Shown piece by piece: positions 8,801 to 24,315 of a stretch of 55,897 nucleotides of DNA. Below the pieces are notes generated by a model. The model did no database searches, had not been told where the DNA came from, and saw nothing but the letters and a program-made list of their open reading frames with translations. The stretch comes from Chitinophagaceae bacterium (GTDB lineage: Bacteria > Bacteroidota > Bacteroidia > Chitinophagales > Chitinophagaceae), in NCBI GenBank assembly GCA_028288595.1, contig JAQBNK010000121.1:1-55897 (forward strand), in the 5' to 3' direction. A program made the translations under genes and the position numbers. Position 1 is the first letter of the stretch, and every line of letters begins with the position of its first letter.

Positions 8801-8955
8801 TAGGCATTGGTACGGGAGCGCAGTTGCATCAGCCACTGGCGATAGCAGTGATTGGTGGATTTATTTCAGCATTGCCTTTATTACTGATCGTATTGCCATC
8901 ACTGATCAGGCTGATCTTTAAAAGAAGAAAACACACAACTGTTGTTGTTGCTTAA
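5887..8955 (+). CDS. RND-family efflux permease
   Basis: 1022 residues, the usual length of RND pumps: a first TM helix, a large periplasmic porter loop, TM2-6 with the proton-relay region (GLIIDDAIVVVEQ), a second porter loop (MDEGSIVLDYDSPPG) and TM8-12 ending in the conserved RPKLMTALGAIIALMPLALG block. The substrate class is unclear. Its layout is between heavy-metal (CzcA-like) and multidrug pumps, and the neighbouring CusRS/CzcRS-like two-component pair favours metal or envelope stress. Its TAA stop shares bases with the stop of the convergent kinase gene (8952-8955), so there is no room for a terminator between the two. Confidence 0.92.
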   Translation: MKNFFISYKSPLTVFIAMIIMGGLFTYSKLQTSLFPEITFPKIKVIADAGLQPVDKMMVTVTKPLEDAIKQIPDLMDIRSTTSRGSCELSAYMNWDANVDLAQQRIESRITQIRNDLPPGVQVTVEKMNPSILPVIGYTLETNNTGRTPIDMKQLAMFTIKPFLSQVQGVAEVRIIGGKQKEYWLTLNTQKMSTLSITPDMLTTALSATNFIQSNGYLSDYRLLYLTITDATVHSVDELKNLVIAGNTKRTIQLKDIADVKINEAVEYTKINANGREGLLIAIIKQPNSNLVDLSRQVESKVAELQKALPSGVTIKPYYIQADFVNDAVRSVTDSLWIGLILAIIVAIIFLRSIKASSTILITIPVTISLTLIAMYAMGYTLNIMTLGAIAAAIGLIIDDAIVVVEQIHRTHEEHPDESSSVVVRKAIEYLLPAMIGSSISTIVIFIPFELMSGVAGAYFKVMTNTMIITLVCSFFVTWIFLPVIYLLLTRKPNTVIVTKKKVKVVEVKRQKWVSFFIFRPYISIIIMALFGLLIYLILPRLQTGFLPEMDEGSIVLDYDSPPGTSLEETNRLLNEIDKILHTIPEISAYSRRTGTQMGFFITEPSRGDYLIQLKKKRDRSTEEVISEIRQKIESTQPALRVDFGQVIGDMLGDLMTSVQPIEIKIFGDDVTRLRELSKNVTEIVEKTEGAADVFNGIVIAGPSISIVPDNGRLALFGLTPAAFQSQVQLALDGIPAGNILEREQLSAVRIRSSSANQGTAKGLDNIRHLQIFTPSGRLMPITDLANIKINEGDAEIERENLQSMGVVTARLENRDLGSTIKEIQQKISANVVFPQGYHVEYGGAYADQQQSFRELLIILITSSLLVFGVMLFLFKDILIAFSIILIAVLGIAGSYIGLYITNTPLNVGSYTGLIMIVGIIGENAIFTYWQFKESLHVLSVDDAIIYSISTRLRPKLMTALGAIIALMPLALGIGTGAQLHQPLAIAVIGGFISALPLLLIVLPSLIRLIFKRRKHTTVVVA

Positions 8956-10202
8956 TCAACCCATTCAATAATAAAATGGTGTTTACTATCCAGGTATTTA
9001 TAAGTGCAGGAAATGTGGGAAACATCGCAGACCTGTTTGATAATAGAAAGTCCGAGCCCTGTATGATCTGCTTTAGGAGTTTTATTTGAAAAACGATCGA
9101 ACATTTTTTCGTTATCCAACGCTGCTTCAGTTGCTGTATTGGCGATAATAAGTTTATGAGATTGCAGGTTAACAATTACAGTTCCGCCTTCCACGTTATG
9201 ATGTATAGCATTGCTGATTAAATTATTTAGAACCAATTCACATAAAGTCTCATTCATTAAAATAGTAGCTGGTTTTAAATCCGTAACTATTTGTAATGAC
9301 TTGCTCGAAAATAATTCTTCAAGTTGAAGCAGTTTATTTTGTACTACGGCCTTTAAATCAATCGCAGAAATTTCAGAAAATTGCCTGTTATCAATTTTAG
9401 CCAGGAGTAAAAGTGAAGTATTAAGGTGCGCCAGTTTTTGTACACTATCATATGCCGCGAGAACAGCCAGGCTTTGCGCTGCTGAAAGTTGCTGATCCTG
9501 TATCAGCAAATCGAGTTTTGAACGAATAATCGCTAACGGCGTTTGCAATTCATGTGAAGCATTTTCTGTAAACTCTTTCAATGTAATATAATCCTGTTCT
9601 GCTTTTTGAAAAGCTTGTTTAAGCGTATCGTTCATGATATTGAATTCCTCAATATTAGTTGCAGGAAAATTGAGAGAATGCTTGCCTCCTAACTGGAAAG
9701 AACGCATAACATCCAGGCTTTTATAAAAAGGCTTCCATAGTTTCCGTAATATCATCCGGTTTATAAGCAGGAACAAAACTAAAAGTAATAAAAGCGTAAC
9801 AAGGGTAATTGCAATAATTGCCTGTATCAGGTCTTCAGTTGCCTCCATAGATTTTAAAACAGTGACCTTATACATCTGCGACTGAACAGGTATAAAAAAT
9901 TCCAGGCTGCGAAATTCTTCCGTACCATGTTCTTCCGTCATATCAATATGGCCAAACTTTTCCGGTATACTATCGGTAGTGATTTGAAACCGGATCACCT
10001 GGTCCTTTACCTGTAATTCGTCTGGTAAACGGTTATATTTAAGAACATGAGCCTGTATCTCTCTTTGTTCTATTTTGAGATCATCATCTATCTGGTTAAC
10101 GAGTACATAACGAAGAATGAAATAATAAGAGATTCCTGCAATCAAAAATACCAGCAAGGTAAAAAGAAGATTAATTCTGTTATATTTTGAAAAGAGCTTC
10201 AT
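8952..10202 (-). CDS. Two-component sensor histidine kinase
   Basis: 416 residues. TM1 at about 12-38 and TM2 at about 128-155 enclose a periplasmic sensor of roughly 95 residues. A linker leads to HisKA with the phospho-acceptor His in NASHELQTPLAI, and then the ATPase domain with N box (NNLISNAIHHN) and glycine box (DHTGLGLSIIKQVC). It lies 2 bases after the response regulator, so the pair is co-transcribed. Organisation is as in CusS/CzcS-type systems next to RND pumps. It is convergent with the RND operon. The signal sensed is unknown. Confidence 0.9.
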   Translation of the reverse strand: MKLFSKYNRINLLFTLLVFLIAGISYYFILRYVLVNQIDDDLKIEQREIQAHVLKYNRLPDELQVKDQVIRFQITTDSIPEKFGHIDMTEEHGTEEFRSLEFFIPVQSQMYKVTVLKSMEATEDLIQAIIAITLVTLLLLLVLFLLINRMILRKLWKPFYKSLDVMRSFQLGGKHSLNFPATNIEEFNIMNDTLKQAFQKAEQDYITLKEFTENASHELQTPLAIIRSKLDLLIQDQQLSAAQSLAVLAAYDSVQKLAHLNTSLLLLAKIDNRQFSEISAIDLKAVVQNKLLQLEELFSSKSLQIVTDLKPATILMNETLCELVLNNLISNAIHHNVEGGTVIVNLQSHKLIIANTATEAALDNEKMFDRFSNKTPKADHTGLGLSIIKQVCDVSHISCTYKYLDSKHHFIIEWVD

Positions 10203-10204
10203 GG

Positions 10205-10885
10205 TTACCTGGTCAATGAAAATTTATACCCCATACCGTAAACCGATTGAATATAGTCAGGTGTGCCTGCCTGCATTAATTTCTTTCGCAGGTTTTTAAT
10301 GTGTGTATATAAAAAATCATAATTACTGGAAACGCCGAGGTGATCGTCCCACAAATGTTCTGCGATAGCTGTCTTAGTGATAACTTTGTTTTTATTGCTG
10401 ATAAAATATAGCAGGAGATCAAACTCTTTTCTTGTAAGCTCTACGGGAATATTTTTAACCTGGAGCATTCGTTCGTTCAGATCCATTTCAAGGTCATCAA
10501 AAGAAAGAACATTTTTTCCATCAAAGGATTTTCTGCGGATGATGGCTGCTACTCTTGCTCCCAGTTCGGACAAGTGAAATGGTTTGGTCAGGTAGTCATC
10601 TGCTCCTGCACGCAAAGCTTGAACTTTATCGTCTAATGAATTTTTAGCGGAAATAATTAAGAGACCATCTGCCTTATCATTTCTTTTTAATTCTTCTAAA
10701 ATGGTTAACCCGCTTCCACCGGGAAGGCCAATATCAAGAATGATACATGCATATTCAAAGACAAGTGCCTTATCCATTGCTGAATGAAAGTCGTAAGCTA
10801 CGTCGCACATAAACTGTTCATTGCCCAGGTAAGTGCAAATGCTGTTAGCCAATTCCTTTTCATCTTCCACAATAAGGATCTTCAT
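10205..10885 (-). CDS. OmpR-family response regulator
   Basis: 226 residues. Receiver domain 1-115 with acidic pair (VEDEKE), phospho-acceptor D51 (CIILDIGLPGGSG), switch Ser (LLIISAKNS) and Lys (YLTKPF). A winged-helix DNA-binding domain at about 130-226 contains LTRKEFDLLLYF and ends with the wing motif SVYGMGYKF. It is the transcriptional output of the adjacent kinase. The likely target is its own promoter, through the 11-base-spaced repeat at 10922-10938, plus the matching site near the PAP2 and RND genes. Confidence 0.93.
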   Translation of the reverse strand: MKILIVEDEKELANSICTYLGNEQFMCDVAYDFHSAMDKALVFEYACIILDIGLPGGSGLTILEELKRNDKADGLLIISAKNSLDDKVQALRAGADDYLTKPFHLSELGARVAAIIRRKSFDGKNVLSFDDLEMDLNERMLQVKNIPVELTRKEFDLLLYFISNKNKVITKTAIAEHLWDDHLGVSSNYDFLYTHIKNLRKKLMQAGTPDYIQSVYGMGYKFSLTR

Positions 10886-10960: not shown

Positions 10961-12940
10961 TTAGTGGTCGCTGCTTTGTTCGGGATTACCGGCCTGGTAC
11001 TGTTCCAGTAAGTGGCTAGCGGTGGTGTCACCTTCTTTTATGGCTTCATCAAGAAGGTCTCTGCCTCTCCTGGTATTTTTATTAAACTCACATTGGCCAT
11101 AACCATTGGCCGATAACATTCCGGGATTGTCTGCAAAGAGATATAAAAAACCAAGTGTACGTTTTGCGGAAGTATAACCTTTGTCACTCGCATCTTTTAC
11201 AAACTCAAGTCCCCGTCCGCAATCAATGTCCTCGTTTTTATTCTGTAAAGCAAGGTTGCCATAATAATACATCGCTTCGGGTACGCTTTGCCCTGCCAGG
11301 TAACTGTATATGTATAAAGCGGCTTTTGTTTGTCCTTTTTCTAAAAATTTTCTCGCATCACGAAGCTGCATGGCAATGTCTTCGGCAGTAAGTTGAACTT
11401 CTGCTTTTTCCCGTTTGCTGCGCTGAGACCAATCTTCCAGGGTGGTTAGATTTTTTTTATTCAGCCAGCCTTTTAAACTTTCTCCTTTATAATTAGTGAA
11501 CTCGGTATAGATAAATCCATTTTTATCTTCGTATGCGGTGATCACATCATTTGAAGGAATAATGTAATCACTTTTTTTCGAGTCTTCATCCGGTGATCCA
11601 TAGAGATATGCTCTTGATGAAACTACTTTATAATGACCGATCACATTCTGTACTTTACCTGGCTGAGTTGTTGTCGCATTGCTTCTATCTGAGGAGCGTG
11701 CAGTTTTTTTTGTTACCAGTGCATATACCAGAATCAAGACAAGAAGGCCTGCAATTATGGAGGCAAATATTTTTTTGCGGTCGGTTGTTTTTTTTGATTG
11801 TCCTGTACGGCTATAACTTGTAAGCGCCGAATCACTTACATCCAAAGATGTGTGAGGAAGGGTTTCATATTTTGTAGCTGCAGAAGTATAGTTAGAACCA
11901 GGAGCCACAGGCACCGCACCTTCACCATTTGTGACCAGTAACCTGCGCAGCTCTTCATTTTCTTTTGCCAGTTGTTCATTTTCCTGCTGTAGTCTAACGA
12001 TAGCCTCCAGGTTATCATCATTCCCGCTCACCGGCAAAGCGCTGTTCACTAAAATAAATTCATACAATTCCATGCCGTTAGCGAAACGGTTTTCCGGTTT
12101 TTTTTCCAGGCATTTGTAGATCAGCGAGACGAGCCATTCAGGAATATTCATCTCTCTTAATTTCATTTCCTGGGACCATCCAGCTGGCATGTGTAATTGT
12201 CGTAGCGGTATAAGTTCAGGTGGAGGTGTTTCCAGGTGAGCCATCATGATCGTATTCCTTGCAGTTTGTCCTTTATCTTTTAAAGGAAAAGGAACGATAC
12301 CTGCCAGTGCTTCAAACAAAACAACTCCGAAACTATATACATCGGTTTCGAAAAGCATTTGACCTTCATTCTGTTCAGGCGCCATAAATTCAATTGCACC
12401 CGCATGCCTTAAACTGGTGCGGCGCTCTTCATCAGACATCAGTGATAAACCAAAATCAAGCAGTACATAATTTCCGGTGTGTATATTCAGTTTTACATTA
12501 TTGCTTTTTATATCACCATGTTTAACATCAAGGTTATGGCAGTGCGCCAATGCATTTGATAAATGTTCCGCAAGTTTAATGGCTTCTTTAACCGTGAAGA
12601 CAGGATCGTAAGGCGGCTTCAGCAATTCTTCGAGATCTGGCCCCTCAATAAATTGCATTTCAATAAAAGGGAAACAGCCACTTTCAGTAATGCCGGAGCT
12701 TAAAATTGTAACAACATTAGGATTAGGATCCTCGTTTACTTTTTTTAGTTTATCAACTTCATTTTTAAAATCGATATAATTTTTGTCTGATGAGCTTTCA
12801 CTGCTTACCGGTGTGGGCAATAATTTTACGGCAGTAACTATTTCTCCCGTTCTTCTTGCTTTATATACAGAGCCCTGGCCGCCGGTTTTTAAAGCGCCCA
12901 TATTCTCCAGGCCCTCGGTTATCCTAAACACCTTGCTCAT
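10961..12940 (-). CDS. Transmembrane Ser/Thr protein kinase with SH3-like and Sel1-like ectodomain
   Basis: 659 residues. Kinase domain at about 5-300: glycine loop GGQGSVYKA, ATP lysine K39 (AVKLL), catalytic HGDIKSNN at 141-148 with D143, DFG at 162-164, APE at 187-189. The usual HRD is HGD, so the Arg before the catalytic Asp is missing (non-RD type). A coiled coil follows at about 308-340, then one TM helix at about 387-408. The part outside the membrane has an SH3-like beta segment (about 430-500) and Sel1/TPR-like helical repeats (about 525-650). It is the last gene of the FHA/PP2C/SEDS-PBP operon, 12 bases after the FHA gene. The layout suggests a PknB-like sensor kinase regulating peptidoglycan synthesis. 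Confidence 0.88.
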   Translation of the reverse strand: MSKVFRITEGLENMGALKTGGQGSVYKARRTGEIVTAVKLLPTPVSSESSSDKNYIDFKNEVDKLKKVNEDPNPNVVTILSSGITESGCFPFIEMQFIEGPDLEELLKPPYDPVFTVKEAIKLAEHLSNALAHCHNLDVKHGDIKSNNVKLNIHTGNYVLLDFGLSLMSDEERRTSLRHAGAIEFMAPEQNEGQMLFETDVYSFGVVLFEALAGIVPFPLKDKGQTARNTIMMAHLETPPPELIPLRQLHMPAGWSQEMKLREMNIPEWLVSLIYKCLEKKPENRFANGMELYEFILVNSALPVSGNDDNLEAIVRLQQENEQLAKENEELRRLLVTNGEGAVPVAPGSNYTSAATKYETLPHTSLDVSDSALTSYSRTGQSKKTTDRKKIFASIIAGLLVLILVYALVTKKTARSSDRSNATTTQPGKVQNVIGHYKVVSSRAYLYGSPDEDSKKSDYIIPSNDVITAYEDKNGFIYTEFTNYKGESLKGWLNKKNLTTLEDWSQRSKREKAEVQLTAEDIAMQLRDARKFLEKGQTKAALYIYSYLAGQSVPEAMYYYGNLALQNKNEDIDCGRGLEFVKDASDKGYTSAKRTLGFLYLFADNPGMLSANGYGQCEFNKNTRRGRDLLDEAIKEGDTTASHLLEQYQAGNPEQSSDH

Positions 12941-13815: not shown

Positions 13816-16800
13816 TTATCGCCTGGTGGTATCCCTCCTTGTAACCCCTTGCGCAGGTGCCGAATCATGCTGAGCACCTGCTGCCGGGGTTACCGGTTGT
13901 GTTGTCTGTGGTTGACCCGGCTGACCATTTACAGGTTGTCCCGGCTGCCCCGCCGGCTGCGCTGGTTGTATACTTTTAATGTAACCTCTCTGTAATAATT
14001 GCGGGATAACATGTTTACCTGCAACTCCTACAGCCACACTGGATCCTTTACAATTTTCTACTCGTATACAAACTACCATATTTCCCGGACCATTAACTTT
14101 TGGGGCAAAAAATACATACCATCCGTCATTAATGATTTCGCCTTTAAATACACGTTCCGGCGTTCCTGTTTTTCCGGCCACGCTTATTTTAAGTATAGGA
14201 GATTTTCTTTCACTTTGTTCGATCATATATTTCGTCATGGTTTGCGCATAAGCCGGCGATTTTGCCAATTGAATGCTGTCTTTTTTTGTAACGACCGAAT
14301 CATTGATTTTTATCACATATTTGTTTGGTATCAACCAGCCATTATTAGCAATTCCAGAAGCAACACGTGCAACAGAAGCAGGTGTAGCAATCAGTTCACC
14401 CTGTCCCCAGGCCATAGCAGAGATACCGATGTTCCTCGTCTTTCTAATATTATTAGGATCATATCTCTTTAAACTTTTAAACTCCGTGCTACGCCACAAT
14501 TGCATCCATTTGCTTTGCTGTCCTGCATTGGCTTCGTAATTATAATAATAGCCGCCCACCCCGTGTAAAAACATTCCTGTCTGCATGTATAAAGTACCCA
14601 TGTATTCCTGCAGTTGTTCGCCATTAGCGAGTTTAATAAAGAAGGGGTTGTTTGATTTTACAATACCTCTTTCAATGGTAATTAATCCGGCCTCATCGGG
14701 TTCTGCACTATTTATCCTGATGAGATCTCCGGGAGCAACAGGAATTTTGAGAGCAGCAGCTTTCATTCCTAATTTATTAAACGCCGAAAGCGCGACAACA
14801 AGTTTCGCTGTTGAACCAGGCTGCGTTGCTCTTGTAAAACCGAGATCGCTGGTAGTTAAAAAATACGGAAGTTTCATTTGATCTCTTTCTGTAAGCGTTA
14901 ATTTCTCCCAGTCATTTACAGGAGGCAGAGGATACATGGCGGATGCTAAAACATCGCCTGTATTATCCTCTCGTATAACGATTGATATCCGATTATTTTT
15001 CAGGCTGTCATCTGTTGAAATTGATTTTTGTATTGCAGTCTGCAAAGCAGCATCAACAGTCATTTGCACATCCCGGTTTCGCTTTTTAAACTGTTCTACT
15101 TCGGCGCTGTTAATACCGGCGAGTAATAACGGAGCGAGTGCACTATAATCCCGTTTCGATACAGTCATTTCTGTTGAGCCCTGTGGCAAGAAACGATCTG
15201 CCCTGAAGCGTGTTGCAGCTACCTGGTATTTACTGGCAGGTGCAGGGAAGCCACGCAATTCCGGTGCATATTCATACTCAGCAAAAAATCCATTTACAGA
15301 ACCGTTAAATACGCCCGTGTTTGCATCGCCCGTCCAGAAAAACATATGTTCACCAAAGGGATAGTACCGGTCAAGTCTTTTATACGCAAGCGCTTCAATG
15401 CTTGTTCTGTCGATCCCTGCGGTAGTTAATGAATCCATTTGTTTAATCACCGATGGAAGATTGCTTGCTGCCAGTATTCTTCCTTTCCGGTCATACAATG
15501 TTCCTGCCTGCAACTTGTCCATTAAGATATTGATACGCGGATTGTAACTGAACATTCTTGAACCGTTCCTGTCCGCCACAAGTGCGGGTTGAACCACCCA
15601 TTTTTTATTGTTGAATAAATAACGGGAGATATTTACAGTAAGCAATAAAATTCCAACACATGCTGCTGCCAATGCGGGCACCAAATTTTTATCCTGTTGT
15701 GTTGAAATAAATTTCATTTGTGCAGAAGTACCTTTCACTTTTGATGATGATAAGAGGAAACCGGCTGCTAAAAGATTACATAACAAAGATGAACCTCCAT
15801 AACTCATGAACGGAAGTGAAACACCCGATAATGGCAGTACGCCAGTTGACCCTCCTGCGATCAATAAAAATTGCATGAAAGTGGCGATACCAATTCCTGA
15901 ACATAAATAAAATAAAAATGGCGTGCCGGTTTGCCGGCCTATGATTATTCCACGGTGCAGGTAAAGTAAGAAGAGTAAAAACACGCTTACAATTCCTGCC
16001 CAGCCAAATTCTTCACCAAATGATGGAAGGATCATATCTGTATGTGCCTCCGGAATTGTTTTAGCAAAACCTTCTCCCGCACCCTGGCCAGTAACACCAC
16101 CACTCGACATTGCCCATATACCATTCGCTACCTGATCTCCGCCATAAACTTCATTGTCCCATTTATCCTGCCATATAGCTTTACGATCTATCAGGCGATG
16201 AACCGGGCCTGGTAATAACTGGTCTAAGTAAGGCACCTGGTCTAGCAAGAGAAAACTTGCCATGATAACAAGGATCATCACTGAAGATTCACTCAGTTGC
16301 TTTTTTCTTGCCATTAAGAGTAACAGGATCACGACGGTAATGCCTGTAGCTAGCAAAACATTTTTTATTAATGCAATAGAGAGAATATATACGATCACAA
16401 TAGTGACCATCGTTCCAAAATCTCCCCGTGAAAATGAAAATAACATAATGAACGTAAAACACACAACCATTGCAGGCCCCAGGTCACCCAGGATCAAAAA
16501 CAAAAAGATCGTTATTAAAATGGCAGCCAGTGCCAATCCAAAAAAAGATGACCTTCTCTTCCATGAAGAATACATCGCAATGAATTTTTCATTAATGGAA
16601 AAGAAGCCCGCTAAAAAAAGAACAAGTAAAAATTTAACGATCTCGCTGGGTTGAAAACCAAACAGGTTCACCTTAACACCACTTCCTTCCGGGCCGGTTC
16701 CAAACATGATCGTTAGGGCAAGTAAACCAATAGCAATAAGCGCCCACGGCCAGCCATTGGCTGCTTTTCTTGCTCGTTGAAAAATGAACATCCTGAAGAA

Positions 16801-18015
16801 TGGTGAATCAGTTGTGAACCGCCTTACATTAATAAACATGAGAACACACAATCCTAACATGCCACCACCGAAATATGTAAGTGTGCTTTTGGCAAGAAAG
16901 CGGTCCCTGATTGGATCCTGCAGACTGAACAGAGTAATTAAAGAAAAACCTGTTAGCAACATTACAATGGGAAGTATTAAAGGATCTGCTGTCGGAAATT
17001 TTACTGTTAATAAAAGATGTGTTATTAAGAACGCCCCGAAAAAACATCCTACAATGATCCAGAACCAATGCATGGCTTCATCAGGTGTACGAACTATTAA
17101 TGCCTTGTCTTTTTTTAGATTATTAAAATCCCGCCCGGATAATAATTTGATCGTATGCTCTGACTGGTAAAAATCAAAATTTAAATTCTTTTTCAAAACT
17201 GCGATCCCTTGCGAAGGACCAAACTGGTAGCCGGGTTGCAAGGGTAATACTTCGAATGATTTGTTTGCAGGCAATCCTGTAAAAGAAAATTTTCCATCTG
17301 GGCCCGAACGGGCATAGGCACTAAGCGTCATTAATCTTTGCCCGTGTGCGGAATCAGTCAAAAAAACTTTTTTTATTGTCTTCTCATCTTTTGTAACCCA
17401 ATTTTTATCTTCATCGGTACTCGTTTGTTCCAGGCTATCCTGTGGTGCAAGCATTTCCAATCTTACCATCACACCATTAACGGGCTGATCATCTTTATTT
17501 TTAATTGTTCCCGAGATCTGGTTATTTCCCAGGCCAATATTATTAGAAGAAGGAAGTTGGGGAGGAGATTTTTTTTCCAGCTCATACTTTACAGAATCAT
17601 CGCCGGTAAATCCAAGTAAAGTACGTGAGAACAGCACCCGCTTCTTGTAGGATTCTCCTCCTTCAGTTAAAGCCCTGTCAGCATTAATATTATAGATTTT
17701 TTTATTCAGCTCACCGAAATTATCAATCTCAGATTCGCTTTTACCGATGTGTTCACCAACAACAGCGCTGGCAAGATTAATATCTTTTGGATCCTGGAAG
17801 TATAAACCCTTTTGCAGTAAGACTTTAAATTGCTCGGCGGGTTTTTCATCATTCAAATTGATCATGGTACCATTAGCTAAACGCTGGTCAACATTTACGA
17901 AATCGCGTTTCAGCACGGTAGATAACTTGAAAAAAAGCAGCGCCAGTACGAGCGCCGAAGCGAGTAAAAAGAATCTTTCAAGTCTTCTTTCTTTTAACCA
18001 GGTTCTCGAAGGCAT
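13816..18015 (-). CDS. SEDS glycosyltransferase - class B PBP transpeptidase fusion
   Basis: 1399 residues in one uninterrupted frame. TM helix at about 14-34; an outside domain at about 37-315 that includes a carboxypeptidase-regulatory-like beta fold (GTIKNKDDQPVNGVMVRLEM to FTGLPANKSFEVLPL). Then a RodA/FtsW-type SEDS membrane domain at about 316-760 with QPSE near 455-458, GDLGPA near 510-515, PEAHTD ending at D660 (putative catalytic Asp) and LPFMSYGGSS near 734-743. A further TM follows at about 780-800, then a class B PBP from about 825 (AGTLYDRKGRILAAS): SxxK with S1068/K1071, SxN at 1121-1123, KTG at 1282-1284. The C-terminus is a Pro/Gln/Gly-rich tail. Both glycan polymerase and crosslinking activities appear intact. 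Located 4 bases after the PP2C gene. Confidence 0.92.
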   Translation of the reverse strand: MPSRTWLKERRLERFFLLASALVLALLFFKLSTVLKRDFVNVDQRLANGTMINLNDEKPAEQFKVLLQKGLYFQDPKDINLASAVVGEHIGKSESEIDNFGELNKKIYNINADRALTEGGESYKKRVLFSRTLLGFTGDDSVKYELEKKSPPQLPSSNNIGLGNNQISGTIKNKDDQPVNGVMVRLEMLAPQDSLEQTSTDEDKNWVTKDEKTIKKVFLTDSAHGQRLMTLSAYARSGPDGKFSFTGLPANKSFEVLPLQPGYQFGPSQGIAVLKKNLNFDFYQSEHTIKLLSGRDFNNLKKDKALIVRTPDEAMHWFWIIVGCFFGAFLITHLLLTVKFPTADPLILPIVMLLTGFSLITLFSLQDPIRDRFLAKSTLTYFGGGMLGLCVLMFINVRRFTTDSPFFRMFIFQRARKAANGWPWALIAIGLLALTIMFGTGPEGSGVKVNLFGFQPSEIVKFLLVLFLAGFFSINEKFIAMYSSWKRRSSFFGLALAAILITIFLFLILGDLGPAMVVCFTFIMLFSFSRGDFGTMVTIVIVYILSIALIKNVLLATGITVVILLLLMARKKQLSESSVMILVIMASFLLLDQVPYLDQLLPGPVHRLIDRKAIWQDKWDNEVYGGDQVANGIWAMSSGGVTGQGAGEGFAKTIPEAHTDMILPSFGEEFGWAGIVSVFLLFLLYLHRGIIIGRQTGTPFLFYLCSGIGIATFMQFLLIAGGSTGVLPLSGVSLPFMSYGGSSLLCNLLAAGFLLSSSKVKGTSAQMKFISTQQDKNLVPALAAACVGILLLTVNISRYLFNNKKWVVQPALVADRNGSRMFSYNPRINILMDKLQAGTLYDRKGRILAASNLPSVIKQMDSLTTAGIDRTSIEALAYKRLDRYYPFGEHMFFWTGDANTGVFNGSVNGFFAEYEYAPELRGFPAPASKYQVAATRFRADRFLPQGSTEMTVSKRDYSALAPLLLAGINSAEVEQFKKRNRDVQMTVDAALQTAIQKSISTDDSLKNNRISIVIREDNTGDVLASAMYPLPPVNDWEKLTLTERDQMKLPYFLTTSDLGFTRATQPGSTAKLVVALSAFNKLGMKAAALKIPVAPGDLIRINSAEPDEAGLITIERGIVKSNNPFFIKLANGEQLQEYMGTLYMQTGMFLHGVGGYYYNYEANAGQQSKWMQLWRSTEFKSLKRYDPNNIRKTRNIGISAMAWGQGELIATPASVARVASGIANNGWLIPNKYVIKINDSVVTKKDSIQLAKSPAYAQTMTKYMIEQSERKSPILKISVAGKTGTPERVFKGEIINDGWYVFFAPKVNGPGNMVVCIRVENCKGSSVAVGVAGKHVIPQLLQRGYIKSIQPAQPAGQPGQPVNGQPGQPQTTQPVTPAAGAQHDSAPAQGVTRRDTTRR

Positions 18016-18019
18016 TTAT

Positions 18020-19432
18020 TTATTTTTTTAAAAGCGTATCTGTAGGAAATAATAAGGAATCGATATTACCGTTTACGATTTGTCCTGCCGGAAGAAAGGA
18101 CTGGTATTGCAAAGGCACAAGGCAATTTTTAAATTGGATATTTTTGAGGTTAAGAGCCCTGCTTTGAGCAATGATACCTACGGCAAAATTATCCAGCACA
18201 AGGCTGTCCAGCACTACGTATTTACAGTTTTGAGCAAGTAAAAATGCCGGACCTTTATATGCAGAGTCACTGGTGATAGTCATTCCATTTCCTTTTATAT
18301 ACATGGAATCTTTTTGAATTAATAAGGTGTCATTCAATACTACCGACTGCCCAAAGCTGCTTAATAACATAGTATCTCCTGTTGCACCATTTAATGTATC
18401 CTGGAGTCTTTTTGAAACAGCATTCGTTGTATCTGTTTGTTTGTGATTTGAAGTTGTTACAGCATTAGAATCGGTTGGTTTAAAAACCATCCATGCGAGA
18501 GCACCTAAAAGTAAAAGACATAAAATGGATAAAGCAACAATACCAGTCCCACCTTTCCTTCTGCGCCTGGGCACAACGATTTCCTCTTCCTCGCCGCTTC
18601 CCATAATCTCATTTTTCCTGTCGGGATCGTCGTCTGCTACTGCCATGGCGGGCCTTACTGTTTCATGAACAGAAGATGGCTTATCATTCCAAACCAGTAC
18701 AGCAGTTACATTATCTTTTCCACCTGCATCATTAGCTGCTTCTATCAGCGACTTTGCTTTATCATCCAGTTCATCATGTGTAGATAAAATAAAAGAGATC
18801 GTTTTTGCATTCACCATATCTGTAAGCCCGTCGCTGCATAACAAAAGCATATCACCAGGTAAAAAAGGGGATTGCCCGGATTCTATATAGTCAGAATGAA
18901 TGGCGAGGCTGGCATCGAAACCCAACGCTTTATTTATCTCATTTCTTTTAGGATGTTTCATGGCGGCCTCTTCAGTTAGCCGGTCACTATCTTCTAAAAA
19001 GCCCACGAATGAATGATCCTTCGTTATTTTCACCAACGATTTATCTCTTAGCAGATAAAGGCGGGTATCTCCAACATGCACATAATAGAACTGGTTGTTC
19101 TGCATATCAATAATAGCTACTGTAAGTACACAGGACATTCGCCCATTTTCATCACTCAGCTGTTTCTCACTGTAGATTTTTTCGTTGGCTGCGGCAAGGG
19201 CACGTTTCAGGATAAGCATTACATCACCATCACCCTGCAATTTATTGAGGTGAGCAAGCAACGTATCATGTGCGATACCTGCTGCAATTTCGCCACCTTC
19301 ATATCCGCCAACACCATCTATAACTGCGGCTAAAATATACCGGTCATGTGCAACCGGCTCTGCGATAAAAGCATCTTCATTGTTCTTTCGAACCCTGCCC
19401 ATGTCTGTGATGCCATAATAATTTTTAGTCAT
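18020..19432 (-). CDS. Membrane-anchored PP2C Ser/Thr phosphatase with beta-helix ectodomain
   Basis: 470 residues. PP2C/PPM catalytic domain at 1-250 with metal-binding residues in RKNNED (D20), VIDGVGG (D39), CSDGLTD (D201) and GGKDNVT (D240). A basic stretch (PRRRRK, about 289-293) precedes one TM at about 296-317. The outside part, about 318-470, shows repeating strand turns (DTLLIQKDSMYIKGNGMTI, NCKYVVLDSLVLDN, SRALNLKNIQFKNC) typical of a short parallel beta-helix. It would reverse phosphorylation by the operon kinase, as PstP does in mycobacteria. Its start overlaps the stop of the 32-aa microprotein by 8 bases, and the SEDS-PBP gene follows after 4. Confidence 0.9.
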   Translation of the reverse strand: MTKNYYGITDMGRVRKNNEDAFIAEPVAHDRYILAAVIDGVGGYEGGEIAAGIAHDTLLAHLNKLQGDGDVMLILKRALAAANEKIYSEKQLSDENGRMSCVLTVAIIDMQNNQFYYVHVGDTRLYLLRDKSLVKITKDHSFVGFLEDSDRLTEEAAMKHPKRNEINKALGFDASLAIHSDYIESGQSPFLPGDMLLLCSDGLTDMVNAKTISFILSTHDELDDKAKSLIEAANDAGGKDNVTAVLVWNDKPSSVHETVRPAMAVADDDPDRKNEIMGSGEEEEIVVPRRRRKGGTGIVALSILCLLLLGALAWMVFKPTDSNAVTTSNHKQTDTTNAVSKRLQDTLNGATGDTMLLSSFGQSVVLNDTLLIQKDSMYIKGNGMTITSDSAYKGPAFLLAQNCKYVVLDSLVLDNFAVGIIAQSRALNLKNIQFKNCLVPLQYQSFLPAGQIVNGNIDSLLFPTDTLLKK

Positions 19433-20637: not shown

Positions 20638-21906
20638 TTAATGATCGTTGAGCGGAAGCCCTCTAAGCTGAAACTCTTTCCAGTTAAGGTATTCATTACC
20701 TTTTCGCTGTTCTACCATGGTGATGCAGTCTTCAACGGGGCAAACGAGTTTGCAGAGGTTACAACCTACGCACTCTTCTTCTTTAATGCTGTAAGTGTTG
20801 TAAGGTTTGCCGTAAGTAAGATTGATGGATTGATGCGAAGTGTCTTCGCAGGCGATATAACAAAGCCCGCAGTGGATACATTTATCCTGGTTAATATTGG
20901 CAACGATATGATAATTGATATCCAGGTCTTCCCAGTGGGTAATATTTTGTACACTCTTCCCGATAAAATCATTAATGGTGGCGAAGCCTTTTTCATCCAT
21001 CCAGTTATTCAGTCCTTCGCACATATCTTCCACAATACGAAAACCATGTTTCATAACGGCTGTGCAAACCTGGACAGTTGTAGAACCGAGCAGCATAAAC
21101 TCAACCGCATCTTTCCAGGTACTGATGCCGCCAATTCCTGAAACCGGAACTTTTGATGTAACTGGATTTTGTGCAATCGTCGTCAGCATTTTTAAAGCGA
21201 TTGGCTTTACAGCCGGACCGCAATAGCCACCAAAAACAGATTTACCGGCGACGTATGGATTAGGCACAAGCGTATCGAGATCAATTCCTGTTACTGATTG
21301 AATTGTATTGATAAGAGATAATGCATCTGTTCCTGCTTCCACCACCGCTTTACCAGTTGGAACAACAGAGTGAACATTCGGAGTTAGTTTAGTAATAACA
21401 GGAATGGTTGCTTTTTCCATCACCCATTCAACAACCATTTTAGCGATCTCGGGATCTTGTCCAACGGCAGCGCCCATGCCCCGTTCCGTCATTCCATGAG
21501 GACAACCAAAATTTAATTCTATTCCATGTGCGCCGGTATCTTCAACTTTTGCAATGATGTCGTGCCAGCTCTGTTTATCATTATCTGCCATTAAGGAAAC
21601 GATCATTGCACGGTCAGGAAATAACCGAACGCATTCTCTTATCTCATCTAAATTAATTTGAAGCGGACGATCACTGATGAGTTCAATATTATTGAAGCCC
21701 ATCATTCTTGTATTATTAAAATTCACAGAAGAATATCGTGACGAAACATTTTTCACCTGGCTGCCTAAAGTTTTCCAAACAACTCCGCCCCATCCTGCCT
21801 CAAATGCACGAAGCACATTTATTTTTTTATCTGTAGGAGGTGCACTCGCAAGCCAGAAAGGGTTGGGAGATTTTATTCCTAAAAAGTTTGCACTTATGTC
21901 CGCCAT
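20638..21906 (-). CDS. preA: NAD-dependent dihydropyrimidine dehydrogenase subunit PreA
   Basis: 422 residues. An FMN-binding TIM barrel of the dihydroorotate dehydrogenase class at about 1-310 (NPFWLASAPPTD, ELNFGCPHGMTERGMGAA, ITKLTPNV, PVSGIGGISTW) carries a C-terminal pair of 4Fe-4S clusters (CIHCGLCYIAC and CVGCNLCKLVC). With PreT it reduces uracil or thymine to the 5,6-dihydro form, or runs in reverse. It is last in the operon, 49 bases after preT. Length and architecture match E. coli PreA. Confidence 0.95.
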   Translation of the reverse strand: MADISANFLGIKSPNPFWLASAPPTDKKINVLRAFEAGWGGVVWKTLGSQVKNVSSRYSSVNFNNTRMMGFNNIELISDRPLQINLDEIRECVRLFPDRAMIVSLMADNDKQSWHDIIAKVEDTGAHGIELNFGCPHGMTERGMGAAVGQDPEIAKMVVEWVMEKATIPVITKLTPNVHSVVPTGKAVVEAGTDALSLINTIQSVTGIDLDTLVPNPYVAGKSVFGGYCGPAVKPIALKMLTTIAQNPVTSKVPVSGIGGISTWKDAVEFMLLGSTTVQVCTAVMKHGFRIVEDMCEGLNNWMDEKGFATINDFIGKSVQNITHWEDLDINYHIVANINQDKCIHCGLCYIACEDTSHQSINLTYGKPYNTYSIKEEECVGCNLCKLVCPVEDCITMVEQRKGNEYLNWKEFQLRGLPLNDH

Positions 21907-21955
21907 TTCGTTTATGAATAATAAGTTATTAATTTATAATACCGGCTATAGTTTT

Positions 21956-23368
21956 TCATAGCATCGGCTGTTGCGTCGCAATCCGTTCATCTGTAGAATA
22001 TGAATTGAGCTGGTGAATACTGGCAATATTTTTTGGTTGAAGAAAATTTAGAATCGCGGCAGCACCATCTTTACCAGCTTGTACCGCATCAACAACTTCT
22101 TTTCCCCCGTTCACGCAATCACCACCAGCAAAAACTCCATCGATATTTGTGACTGCATTATCTTTTACTGCAACTTTTCCTCTGTTGTTTTCTATTCCAT
22201 TTTTATTGATGAGATCAGTGAAAGGATTTTGTCCTGTTGCTTTTATCACCATATCAACTTCTAAAGTGATTGTTTGTCCTGTTGGCTCCGGTGCTGGCTT
22301 ACCAGAGTGATCTGTAGCTCCTAGTGTCATTATATCACAAACCAACGCGGTTACTCTCCCATTCTCACCAATAACTTCTCTTGGTGCAGCGAGCCATTGC
22401 ATTTTGCAACCATCCAGAAGAGCTATATCCAATTCATGTTGAGTACAATTTTTTTGCGCTTCCGTTCTGCGATAAACCATCGTTACTTCTTTAGCACCTA
22501 AACGTTTCGCCTGTGTCGCCGCATCAATGGCAGTCATTCCCATTCCAATAACAGCCACTCTATCGCCAACAGAAATATTTGGATATCCTTTTGTTCTTAT
22601 GTCATAAATAAAACCAATCGCATCTTCAACACCTTGTAACTCCTCACCGGGAATATTTAATTTATTGGCAAGACCAACGCCGATGCCTAAATAAACAGCA
22701 TCATAATTTTTCTGTAACTCTTCAATCGAAATATCTTTTCCTAATTCATGATCATATTTAATTTCAATCCCGCCGAGTGATAAAATAAAATCAACTTCAT
22801 CCTGGCAGAAAGATGGCGTTACTTTATAAGCTGCAATTCCATAGGTCATCAAACCACCGCCTTTACTTTCTTTTTCAAAAACTGTTACATCAACGCCATG
22901 TCTTGATAAAACATGAGCGCAACTTAATCCCGCAGGTCCGGCGCCAACAACAGCAACTTTTAGTCCATTAGAAGGTTTTCTTTCAAACAATTTCCATTTA
23001 TCTCTAATGGCTTTTTCTGTAGAGTAACGCTGGAGTTTTGCAATTGGTATCGGCGCTTCATGTAAAAGATTATAAACACATGAGCCTTCGCATAATTTCT
23101 CTACGGGGCAAACCTTAGAGCAACCGCCGCCAAAAATATTTGAATCAAATATGGTGTGAGCAGAACCTTTAATGTTATCTGTAGTGATCTGCTTAATGAA
23201 CTTCGGGATATTTATACTTGTAGGGCATTGCTTAATACACGGCGCATCATAACAGAACAAACAACGATTCGCTTCAACCAATGCCGCTTCTTTATTTTCG
23301 AAGGGCGGGTGAATGTCGCTGAAGTTTTGTTCGTATTGTTCTGCTGTTAAGCGATTACTTTCAATCAT
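21956..23368 (-). CDS. preT: Dihydropyrimidine dehydrogenase subunit PreT (NAD/FAD oxidoreductase)
   Basis: 470 residues. N-terminal iron-sulphur region with conserved cysteines (CLFCYDAPCIKQCP, GGGCSKVCPVEKLCEGSC), then an FAD-binding motif (VAVVGAGPAGLSCAHVL) and an NAD(P)-binding motif (VAVIGMGMTAIDAATQAKRLG), ending in GGDCVNGGKEVVDAVQAGK. It takes electrons from NADH and passes them to PreA; architecture is as in the glutamate synthase small-subunit family. It lies 80 bases after the ureidopropionase gene, and the gap holds a palindromic repeat. Confidence 0.94.
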   Translation of the reverse strand: MIESNRLTAEQYEQNFSDIHPPFENKEAALVEANRCLFCYDAPCIKQCPTSINIPKFIKQITTDNIKGSAHTIFDSNIFGGGCSKVCPVEKLCEGSCVYNLLHEAPIPIAKLQRYSTEKAIRDKWKLFERKPSNGLKVAVVGAGPAGLSCAHVLSRHGVDVTVFEKESKGGGLMTYGIAAYKVTPSFCQDEVDFILSLGGIEIKYDHELGKDISIEELQKNYDAVYLGIGVGLANKLNIPGEELQGVEDAIGFIYDIRTKGYPNISVGDRVAVIGMGMTAIDAATQAKRLGAKEVTMVYRRTEAQKNCTQHELDIALLDGCKMQWLAAPREVIGENGRVTALVCDIMTLGATDHSGKPAPEPTGQTITLEVDMVIKATGQNPFTDLINKNGIENNRGKVAVKDNAVTNIDGVFAGGDCVNGGKEVVDAVQAGKDGAAAILNFLQPKNIASIHQLNSYSTDERIATQQPML

Positions 23369-23383
23369 GTTTAGAATTTAGAG

Positions 23384-23443
23384 TTATGAATTATGAATTA
23401 TGAATAGCCTAACCATTCATAATTTTAAATTCCTAATTCATAA
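23384..23443. repeat. TTATGAAT-type palindromic repeat
   Basis: Left side: tandem ATTATGA units. Inner arms AATTATGAAT (23396-23405) and ATTCATAATT (23415-23424) pair perfectly around a 9-base loop; a second TAATTCATAA follows at 23434-23443. A related element lies at 27304-27333 in the same operon. No T-run follows, so it is unlikely to be a strong terminator. Confidence 0.75.
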
Positions 23444-23448
23444 TTAAA

Positions 23449-24315
23449 TTATAGTTCCACCAGCTTATTATAAGTCTCCGGTCTCCTGTCTCTGAAGAAT
23501 TGCCAAACGCTTCTTACTTCTTCAATCATATCAAGATCAAAATCGGCAATTAGTAATTCATCTTTGTCTTCGCTGGCCTGGGAAAATATTTGTCCGCGTG
23601 GATCAACGAAATAAGAACTGCCATAAAATTTACCGAGGTTCCATGGTTTTTCTTCTCCCACACGATTAATGCATCCCATGAAATACCCATTAGCCGCAGC
23701 ATGAGCCGGTTGTTCCAGTTTCCATAAATATTGCGACAATCCTGCAACAGTTGCAGAAGGATTATAAACTATTTCAGCTCCGTTCAGTCCCAAACATCTT
23801 GCACCATCAGGGAAGTGACGATCATAACAAATGTAAACGCCCACCTTGGCATACTTAGTTTGAAAAACTGGATAACCAAGATTGCCGGGTTTAAAGAAAA
23901 ATTTTTCCCAGAAACCGCTGGTGTGAGGAATATGATTTTTACGATACTTACCCAGGTAAGTTCCATCTGCATCAATTACTGCCGCAGTATTATATAAAAC
24001 ACCGGCTTGTTCTTTTTCATAAACAGGAACGATCATTACCATTTGGTATTTCTTCGCGTAGTCCTGCATGCGCTCTATCGTAGGACCTGGAACAGTTTCA
24101 GCGCTTTCATACCAGGCTTTATCCTGACCAGGACAGAAATAGGGTGTGTTGAAAATTTCCTGCATACAAAGAATCTGCACACCTTTTCTTCCGGCTTCTT
24201 CAATTAAAGGAATGTGCTTTTGCACCATTGCTTCTTTAATTTCTTCGATAGTTCCTTCTCCTTCTGTTTTAGGAAGAGACATTTGAATAAGACCTGATTT
24301 TACAATTCTCGACAT
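23449..24315 (-). CDS. Beta-ureidopropionase / N-carbamoyl-beta-alanine amidohydrolase
   Basis: 288 residues, a carbon-nitrogen hydrolase (nitrilase) fold with the full triad: Glu in CMQEIFNTPYFCP, Lys in KYRKNHIPH and Cys in GVYICYDRHFPDGAR. In this context the substrate is N-carbamoyl-beta-alanine (or the 2-methyl form from thymine), hydrolysed to beta-alanine, CO2 and ammonia, the third step of the reductive pathway. Close relatives act on N-carbamoylputrescine; the surrounding preT/preA/hydA genes decide for the pyrimidine role. Confidence 0.9.
   Translation of the reverse strand: MSRIVKSGLIQMSLPKTEGEGTIEEIKEAMVQKHIPLIEEAGRKGVQILCMQEIFNTPYFCPGQDKAWYESAETVPGPTIERMQDYAKKYQMVMIVPVYEKEQAGVLYNTAAVIDADGTYLGKYRKNHIPHTSGFWEKFFFKPGNLGYPVFQTKYAKVGVYICYDRHFPDGARCLGLNGAEIVYNPSATVAGLSQYLWKLEQPAHAAANGYFMGCINRVGEEKPWNLGKFYGSSYFVDPRGQIFSQASEDKDELLIADFDLDMIEEVRSVWQFFRDRRPETYNKLVEL

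Follow-up and report, generated by a model that had tools for sequence, protein, structure and literature searches.

A conserved single-chain SEDS-class B PBP protein of Bacteroidota, probably an accessory peptidoglycan synthase, encoded among phosphatase, kinase and FHA genes

Class A penicillin-binding proteins (PBPs) hold a polymerase and a transpeptidase in one chain (PMC8262863), the polymerase being a GT51 enzyme (PMC10449877; this and the other papers are cited from excerpts). Fusions of the SEDS polymerase RodA to the class B PBP PBP2 have been engineered and are active (PMC6207328, PMC10449877), and natural SEDS-PBP fusions in a single open reading frame exist according to PMC10449877, which cites the Rhodococcus RHA1 genome paper for them. 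In actinobacteria the two genes stand side by side in the locus fhaA-fhaB-pstP-rodA-pbpA-pknA-pknB (PMC6554272). Here we describe a protein encoded in contig JAQBNK010000121.1 of a Chitinophagaceae bacterium (assembly GCA_028288595.1; the whole analysed stretch of 55,897 nucleotides is called the window below), in which a SEDS polymerase and a class B PBP transpeptidase form one polypeptide. It is probably a natural single-chain peptidoglycan synthase, working as a third, accessory enzyme beside the stand-alone RodA/PBP2 and FtsW/FtsI pairs. The initial annotation of this DNA, made from the letters alone, knew of no characterised protein of this type, a remark that needs qualifying in view of the natural fusions mentioned and the engineered ones found active in the excerpts cited above. 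Searches of open-access literature, with most subscription papers outside its coverage, gave no description of this Bacteroidota family or of the triple fusion with a PP2C phosphatase reported below, and in the main text of PMC8406291 the words 'fusion' and 'fused' do not occur.

The frame starts with ATG and runs through 1399 codons with zero internal stops. PF01098 matches residues 417-758 (156.5 bits against a cut-off of 26.4) and PF00905 residues 1011-1317 (74.2 against 22.1) of this one uninterrupted frame, so that the initial assignment of SEDS and class B PBP to one polypeptide held; among the Pfam matches at E<=0.01 there was no GT51. All motifs named in that annotation lie in the translation as claimed, namely PSE (456-458), DLGPA (511-515), PEAHTD (655-660) and LPFMSYGGSS (734-743) in the SEDS part, and S1068TAK1071, S1121NN1123 and K1282TG in the PBP part. 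D660 of PEAHTD aligns with D262 of E. coli MrdB/RodA, where the D262A exchange abolishes polymerisation (PMC6207328). Searches of PDB sequences with the whole protein and with a profile of the SEDS-PBP part list FtsW, RodA and PBP chains. For conservation we aligned 88 members, comprising 77 of the loci L041-L120 described below, ten other relatives and the window protein; L041, L082 and L109, which have shorter frames, dropped out. HTD was kept in 88/88, as were the Ser and Lys of SxxK and the Ser and Asn of SxN, and the third PBP motif read KTG in 77 and KSG in 11 of the 88. Judging by this alignment, a single conserved frame encodes both domains, with their catalytic residues intact. A degenerate, non-catalytic SEDS module that merely anchors the PBP in the membrane is accordingly hard to reconcile with the invariant HTD and with DLGPA (74/88) or DMGPA (14/88), and we consider it very unlikely; it could draw on the replacement of the PEAHTD glutamate by alanine in 8/88 members, on one member with SKGNAG where the others have SYGGSS, and on the PF01098 scores within the own genome, in which the fusion (127.6 and 36.9 bits in two pieces) falls below the stand-alone SEDS proteins (243.7 bits, and 168.2 and 79.2 bits in two pieces).

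The initial annotation had named separate genes in close relatives as the mark of a sequencing error that joined two neighbours. Scanning named genomes yielded 315 pattern matches and 225 relatives, and all counts over 80 loci in this text refer to the best 80 of those 225. SEDS and PBP share one frame in 80/80 of the kept loci and none has two separate genes, an outcome in favour of the fusion. By record name the loci come chiefly from Mucilaginibacter, Pedobacter, Segetibacter, Ferruginibacter and Flavisolibacter, all of which we take to be Bacteroidota; at least L059 and L110 share a strain name, and the 80 loci are not 80 species. A small error could in principle join a pair such as rodA/pbpA, which overlaps by 4 bases in Actinomyces oris and by 14 in Monoglobus. 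Against such an error, in sequencing or assembly, stand the single frame at all 80 loci, which include a complete chromosome (L112), its presence on one complete plasmid and, at 28-39% identity, in more distant Bacteroidota, and the conservation of the linker, so that we regard the artefact as ruled out and give it practically no probability.

The search among relatives covered 59 genomes, and 4 of them, the own genome included, have near-full-length fusions with 34-63% identity. Among 395 Bacteroidota genomes, at least 15 carry a fusion at E<=1e-60, the frames being 1222-1399 codons long; two first-look candidates were scored per genome, which makes the 15 a lower bound. In a search for unfused members at E<=1e-40, again over two scored candidates per genome, 88 of the 395 match, of which 15 are fusions and 73 list one half alone: a SEDS half in one genome (G394, 415 codons) and the PBP half in the rest, in frames of 475-671 codons that look like ordinary PBP2. 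The matches in G420, G302 and G070 each count one stop codon, none of them inside the SEDS-PBP match, and in G420 and G302 it fits the frame end by coordinates. At L041:8190-12482 the N-terminal region occupies a frame of its own and SEDS-PBP the next, a split that is either real or an error of metagenome assembly. One genome (G184) has two differing fusions, of 1221 residues (L147:8441-12106) and 1307 residues (L150:5165-9088). The complete 137 kb plasmid of Spirosoma oryzicola carries the whole cassette (L137:6342-20010) in the order FHA, PP2C, two kinases, fusion (38.9% identity), FHA, hypothetical protein, response regulator and histidine kinase; it was the single plasmid record, among 153 that matched, in which the match spans 80% of the query.

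The linker between the two halves is strongly conserved. S758, G762, Q766, D775, N777 and P780 are identical in 77/77 rows from L041-L120, and over all 88 rows they are kept in 85, 86, 86, 84, 80 and 82, respectively. The spacing between the SEDS motif and the PALV motif is 73 in 57/88 members and 74 in 6/88, with 16 rows giving no value under the pattern applied and nine giving other values, at least one of which (616) is a plain failure of the pattern. This bears on the alternative that the single chain is made and then cut in the linker into a SEDS and a PBP protein, for which there is a precedent in an engineered RodA-PBP2 fusion, found cleaved within its linker when prepared (excerpt of PMC6207328). 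We think it unlikely, as such conservation is more like that of a structural element than of a disposable tether.

To place the two halves we built one tree for each. The SEDS tree holds 41 hand-chosen sequences, among them 12 of the 26 listed Bacteroidota SEDS frames and two from the own genome; several rows are long-branched, and the Arthrobacter RodA was left out for its broken frame. At that Arthrobacter locus (L144:3848-7004) both PP2C and RodA are split over two overlapping frames. The 19 fusions fall on one side of a branch (support 100/99), and a further branch (100/99) sets the fusions, along with the RodA of clostridial Monoglobus and three RodA sequences from actinobacteria, apart from all others, with Bacteroidota RodA/FtsW, E. 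coli RodA/FtsW, SpoVE and an actinobacterial FtsW on the opposite side. Profile comparison of the SEDS half points the same way, with actinobacterial/Monoglobus RodA best (3.4e-65), then FtsW (1.7e-53) and ordinary RodA (8.1e-42). The alignment with the best profile takes in the helix at 311-339, the first helix having lain outside the crop; by hydropathy, two extra N-terminal membrane helices precede the SEDS core both in the window protein and in A. oris RodA. By these comparisons the SEDS half is of the actinobacterial/clostridial RodA lineage and not of that of the organism's own RodA or FtsW. In the PBP tree (44 rows, many PBP2 rows being cut by locus ends and FtsI being represented by two long-branched rows alone) the fusions form one group as well (100/100), and a single origin of the fusion would fit both trees.

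All 16 fusion genomes searched (the 15 counted above and G007) have two stand-alone SEDS frames of 378-473 codons besides the fusion, which makes the fusion a third synthase; in the own genome these two genes share their contigs with stand-alone PBPs. Given these genes and its differing lineage, the fusion is unlikely to be the only or the main RodA or FtsW of the cell. The initial annotation, right on the fusion itself, had overlooked this third-synthase status, the actinobacterial-type lineage of the SEDS half and the N-terminal region.

That region extends over about 270 periplasmic residues between the membrane helices 11-38 and 311-339, and an AlphaFold model of residues 1-346 has good confidence (mean predicted local distance difference test score, pLDDT, 87.7). 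Its beta-sandwich resembles transthyretin/CnaB-like and carboxypeptidase-regulatory domains, the best structural matches having Z scores of 9.2 and 9.1 within residues 164-287 (root-mean-square deviation of 1.5 over 76 residues for the best). Several other families lie within one Z unit, so the assignment goes no closer, and the fold says nothing certain on function. The structural matches left the helical part (42-149) uncovered, and Foldseek alone gave low TM-scores for the N-terminal region. PF13620 is below its cut-off in the window fusion and above it in L147 and L148. The model of the SEDS-PBP part (301-1350) has a mean pLDDT of 76.6 and a predicted TM-score of 0.65. Against solved PBPs its PBP domain reaches Z 29-31, with many ties among the 50 matches listed; the Foldseek and VIA-align rows for this model are all PBPs among the 50 listed, and bear on the PBP half alone. 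If the N terminus is taken as cytoplasmic, a count of the helices predicts the linker to lie inside and both the D660 loop and the PBP domain outside the membrane. The predicted helices 553-571 and 576-593 lie in a stretch with no counterpart in the aligned actinobacterial RodA.

The coordinates of the fusion, its parts and its neighbours are collected in Table 1.

Table 1. The fusion, its parts and the adjoining genes in the window (TM, transmembrane helix)
Feature	Position	Strand	Description
Fusion protein	13816..18015	minus	N-terminal TM and periplasmic region, SEDS polymerase, class B PBP transpeptidase; 1399 aa
Residues 1-346	16978..18015	minus	TM 11-38, helical 42-149, transthyretin/CnaB-like beta-sandwich ~157-290, TM 311-339 (AlphaFold model)
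SEDS core, residues ~343-758	15742..16989	minus	PF01098; catalytic-type Asp is D660 of PEAHTD
Linker, residues ~758-780	15676..15744	minus	Last SEDS helix to PBP membrane helix; predicted cytoplasmic
PBP part, residues ~777-1350	13966..15687	minus	TM ~776-801, pedestal region, transpeptidase
PP2C-type Ser/Thr phosphatase	18020..19432	minus	One TM (293-321); the genome's only PF13672 match
FHA1, 316 aa	19529..20479	minus	No Pfam match; Spirosoma relative has a weak FHA domain barely over cut-off
FHA2, 260 aa	12953..13735	minus	C-terminal FHA-like domain below Pfam cut-off (18.0 vs 20.7 bits)
Ser/Thr protein kinase	10961..12940	minus	One strong TM (387-414), unassigned C-terminal part
OmpR-type response regulator	10205..10885	minus	Cassette membership doubtful
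PorY-family sensor histidine kinase	8952..10202	minus	Over NF052314 cut-off (type IX secretion label); cassette membership doubtful

Within the fetched flanks of the 80 loci, PP2C was found in 79, FHA1 in 78, FHA2 in 79 and a kinase in 75, the missing PP2C and FHA cases all being at contig ends. A stricter rule gave 75/80 for PP2C, with called frames overlapping by more than 60 bases in L062, L072, L090 and L113. Among the five loci without a kinase match, L051, L075 and L082 have short flanks on one or both sides, and in L049 and L088 some 10 kb of downstream DNA is free of a kinase match, with less than 3 kb upstream. Where present, kinase genes number one to three at a locus and either precede or follow the fusion. 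The response regulator had matches near the fusion in 11 of the 80 loci and the histidine kinase in none, for which reason we doubt that these two belong to the cassette. At L149:6262-10416 (G232), PP2C, SEDS and PBP transpeptidase are joined in a single frame of 1384 codons; in L148, which stands beside L149 in both trees, PP2C is the gene just before a 1223-codon fusion. The own genome has three PF00069 kinases. In the window kinase, residues 415-659 behind the membrane helix have no Pfam assignment over cut-off; this part is a possible sensor that would stand in for PASTA repeats. Profile comparison of the FHA proteins with FhaA aligned a weak FHA stretch alone, and the candidate assignment of these proteins as FhaA/FhaB orthologues was unsupported. 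A scan gave promoter-like sites in no greater number than in shuffles (22 against 26.1) and 14 terminator-like sites against 9.4 (standard deviation 3.5), and nothing here rests on it. Further along, a PreA-like dihydropyrimidine dehydrogenase subunit, a glutamate-synthase-like NAD(P)-binding protein and an amidase/nitrilase-family protein are encoded consecutively at 20638-24315, a gene row that may serve pyrimidine breakdown.

From these data we propose how the accessory synthase might work. Its SEDS half would polymerise lipid II, and the glycan strand would pass straight to the tethered transpeptidase. The timing of its activity may be set by the periplasmic N-terminal region, with its helical part and transthyretin/CnaB-like domain, together with the kinase, PP2C and FHA proteins encoded nearby, as in the PknA/B-PstP-FhaA/B-RodA-PbpA locus of actinobacteria. 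That phosphorylation exerts control is inferred from the gene order and from the PP2C triple fusion. Tethering could plausibly bring the two benefits put forward in the initial annotation, a 1:1 stoichiometry that is fixed and simpler regulation through the kinase system. A constitutive back-up synthase outside kinase control, the operon then reflecting linkage without regulation, is an alternative to regulation by the cassette. The varying position and number of the kinase genes, their absence from the fetched DNA of 5/80 loci and the inconstancy of the adjoining response regulator and histidine kinase all suit it, and we know of no phosphosite or interaction for the fusion, which counts on the same side. 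PP2C and FHA are nevertheless near-constant on both sides of the gene, and PP2C is fused into the chain in L149, so that we hold a synthase free of control to be rather improbable. Bolder is the idea of a signal-gated, self-contained wall synthase, in which the periplasmic N-terminal region and phosphorylation of the chain or of its FHA partners would read the state of the envelope and so replace MreC and FtsN-FtsQLB, the separate activators of ordinary SEDS-PBP pairs. We entertain it as possible, if doubtful; were it true, one chain would carry sensing, polymerisation and crosslinking, and in L149 its own phosphatase as well.

Several points weigh against the proposed single-chain accessory synthase and its likeness to the actinobacterial system. 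In the best tree the PBP half stands apart from PbpA, grouping with PbpA being not rejected (p of 0.199 in the approximately unbiased test). PF21922 (PBP_dimer_2), which A. oris PbpA carries, was found neither in the PBP half nor, at E<=0.01, elsewhere in the own genome; zero Pfam pedestal models match the fusion, and its pedestal region fits PBP2 (5.2e-14) and FtsI (1.1e-11) profiles better than PbpA, matches that rest partly on the start of the transpeptidase domain. An assignment of the PBP half as PbpA is unsupported by these comparisons. FHA2 lacks a Pfam match to DUF3662 and the window kinase one to PASTA, so kinship of the entire cassette with the actinobacterial one is not borne out gene by gene. 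The distribution of the family is widespread but patchy, the model of the 1050 residues 301-1350 has only moderate confidence, and the case as a whole is built on sequence comparison and predicted models.

Hand-over of the strand by SEDS proteins and activation of the pair have been studied on two-protein complexes or engineered fusions (excerpts of PMC10449877 and PMC6207328). An evolutionarily fixed pair with a conserved linker offers structural work and assays a single-chain synthase that is natural. With the kinase/phosphatase/FHA set beside it, phosphorylation control of wall synthesis could be tested directly in Bacteroidota, a control to which the PP2C-SEDS-PBP chain of L149 is a stronger pointer than gene order.

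Compared with the systems described, the single chain is shared with class A PBPs, whose polymerase is GT51, whereas the window fusion has SEDS. Ordinary RodA/PBP2 and FtsW/FtsI, as in the stand-alone copies of the own genome, are of the same enzyme families, with separate genes and another SEDS lineage. The natural fusions of PMC10449877 likewise have SEDS and PBP in one open reading frame, and the excerpted text describes them by their existence alone. Engineered RodA-PBP2 fusions have the same order, SEDS first and PBP second, and a short linker; they differ in being man-made, with glycine/serine-rich linkers and no N-terminal region. The actinobacterial pstP/rodA locus is unlike the window in that rodA and pbpA are unfused there and the window fusion has a large periplasmic region between its two extra helices; in the window an FHA-like gene follows the PBP part, and PASTA, DUF3662 and PF21922 were not found in its cassette. 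The likeness lies in the SEDS half, which falls in the same tree group and has the two extra N-terminal helices, and in the order FHA, PP2C, SEDS, PBP, kinase, with PP2C directly before SEDS-PBP; A. oris has fhaA, fhaB, PP2C, rodA, pbpA and two kinases in this order, and Monoglobus has FHA, rodA and pbpA.

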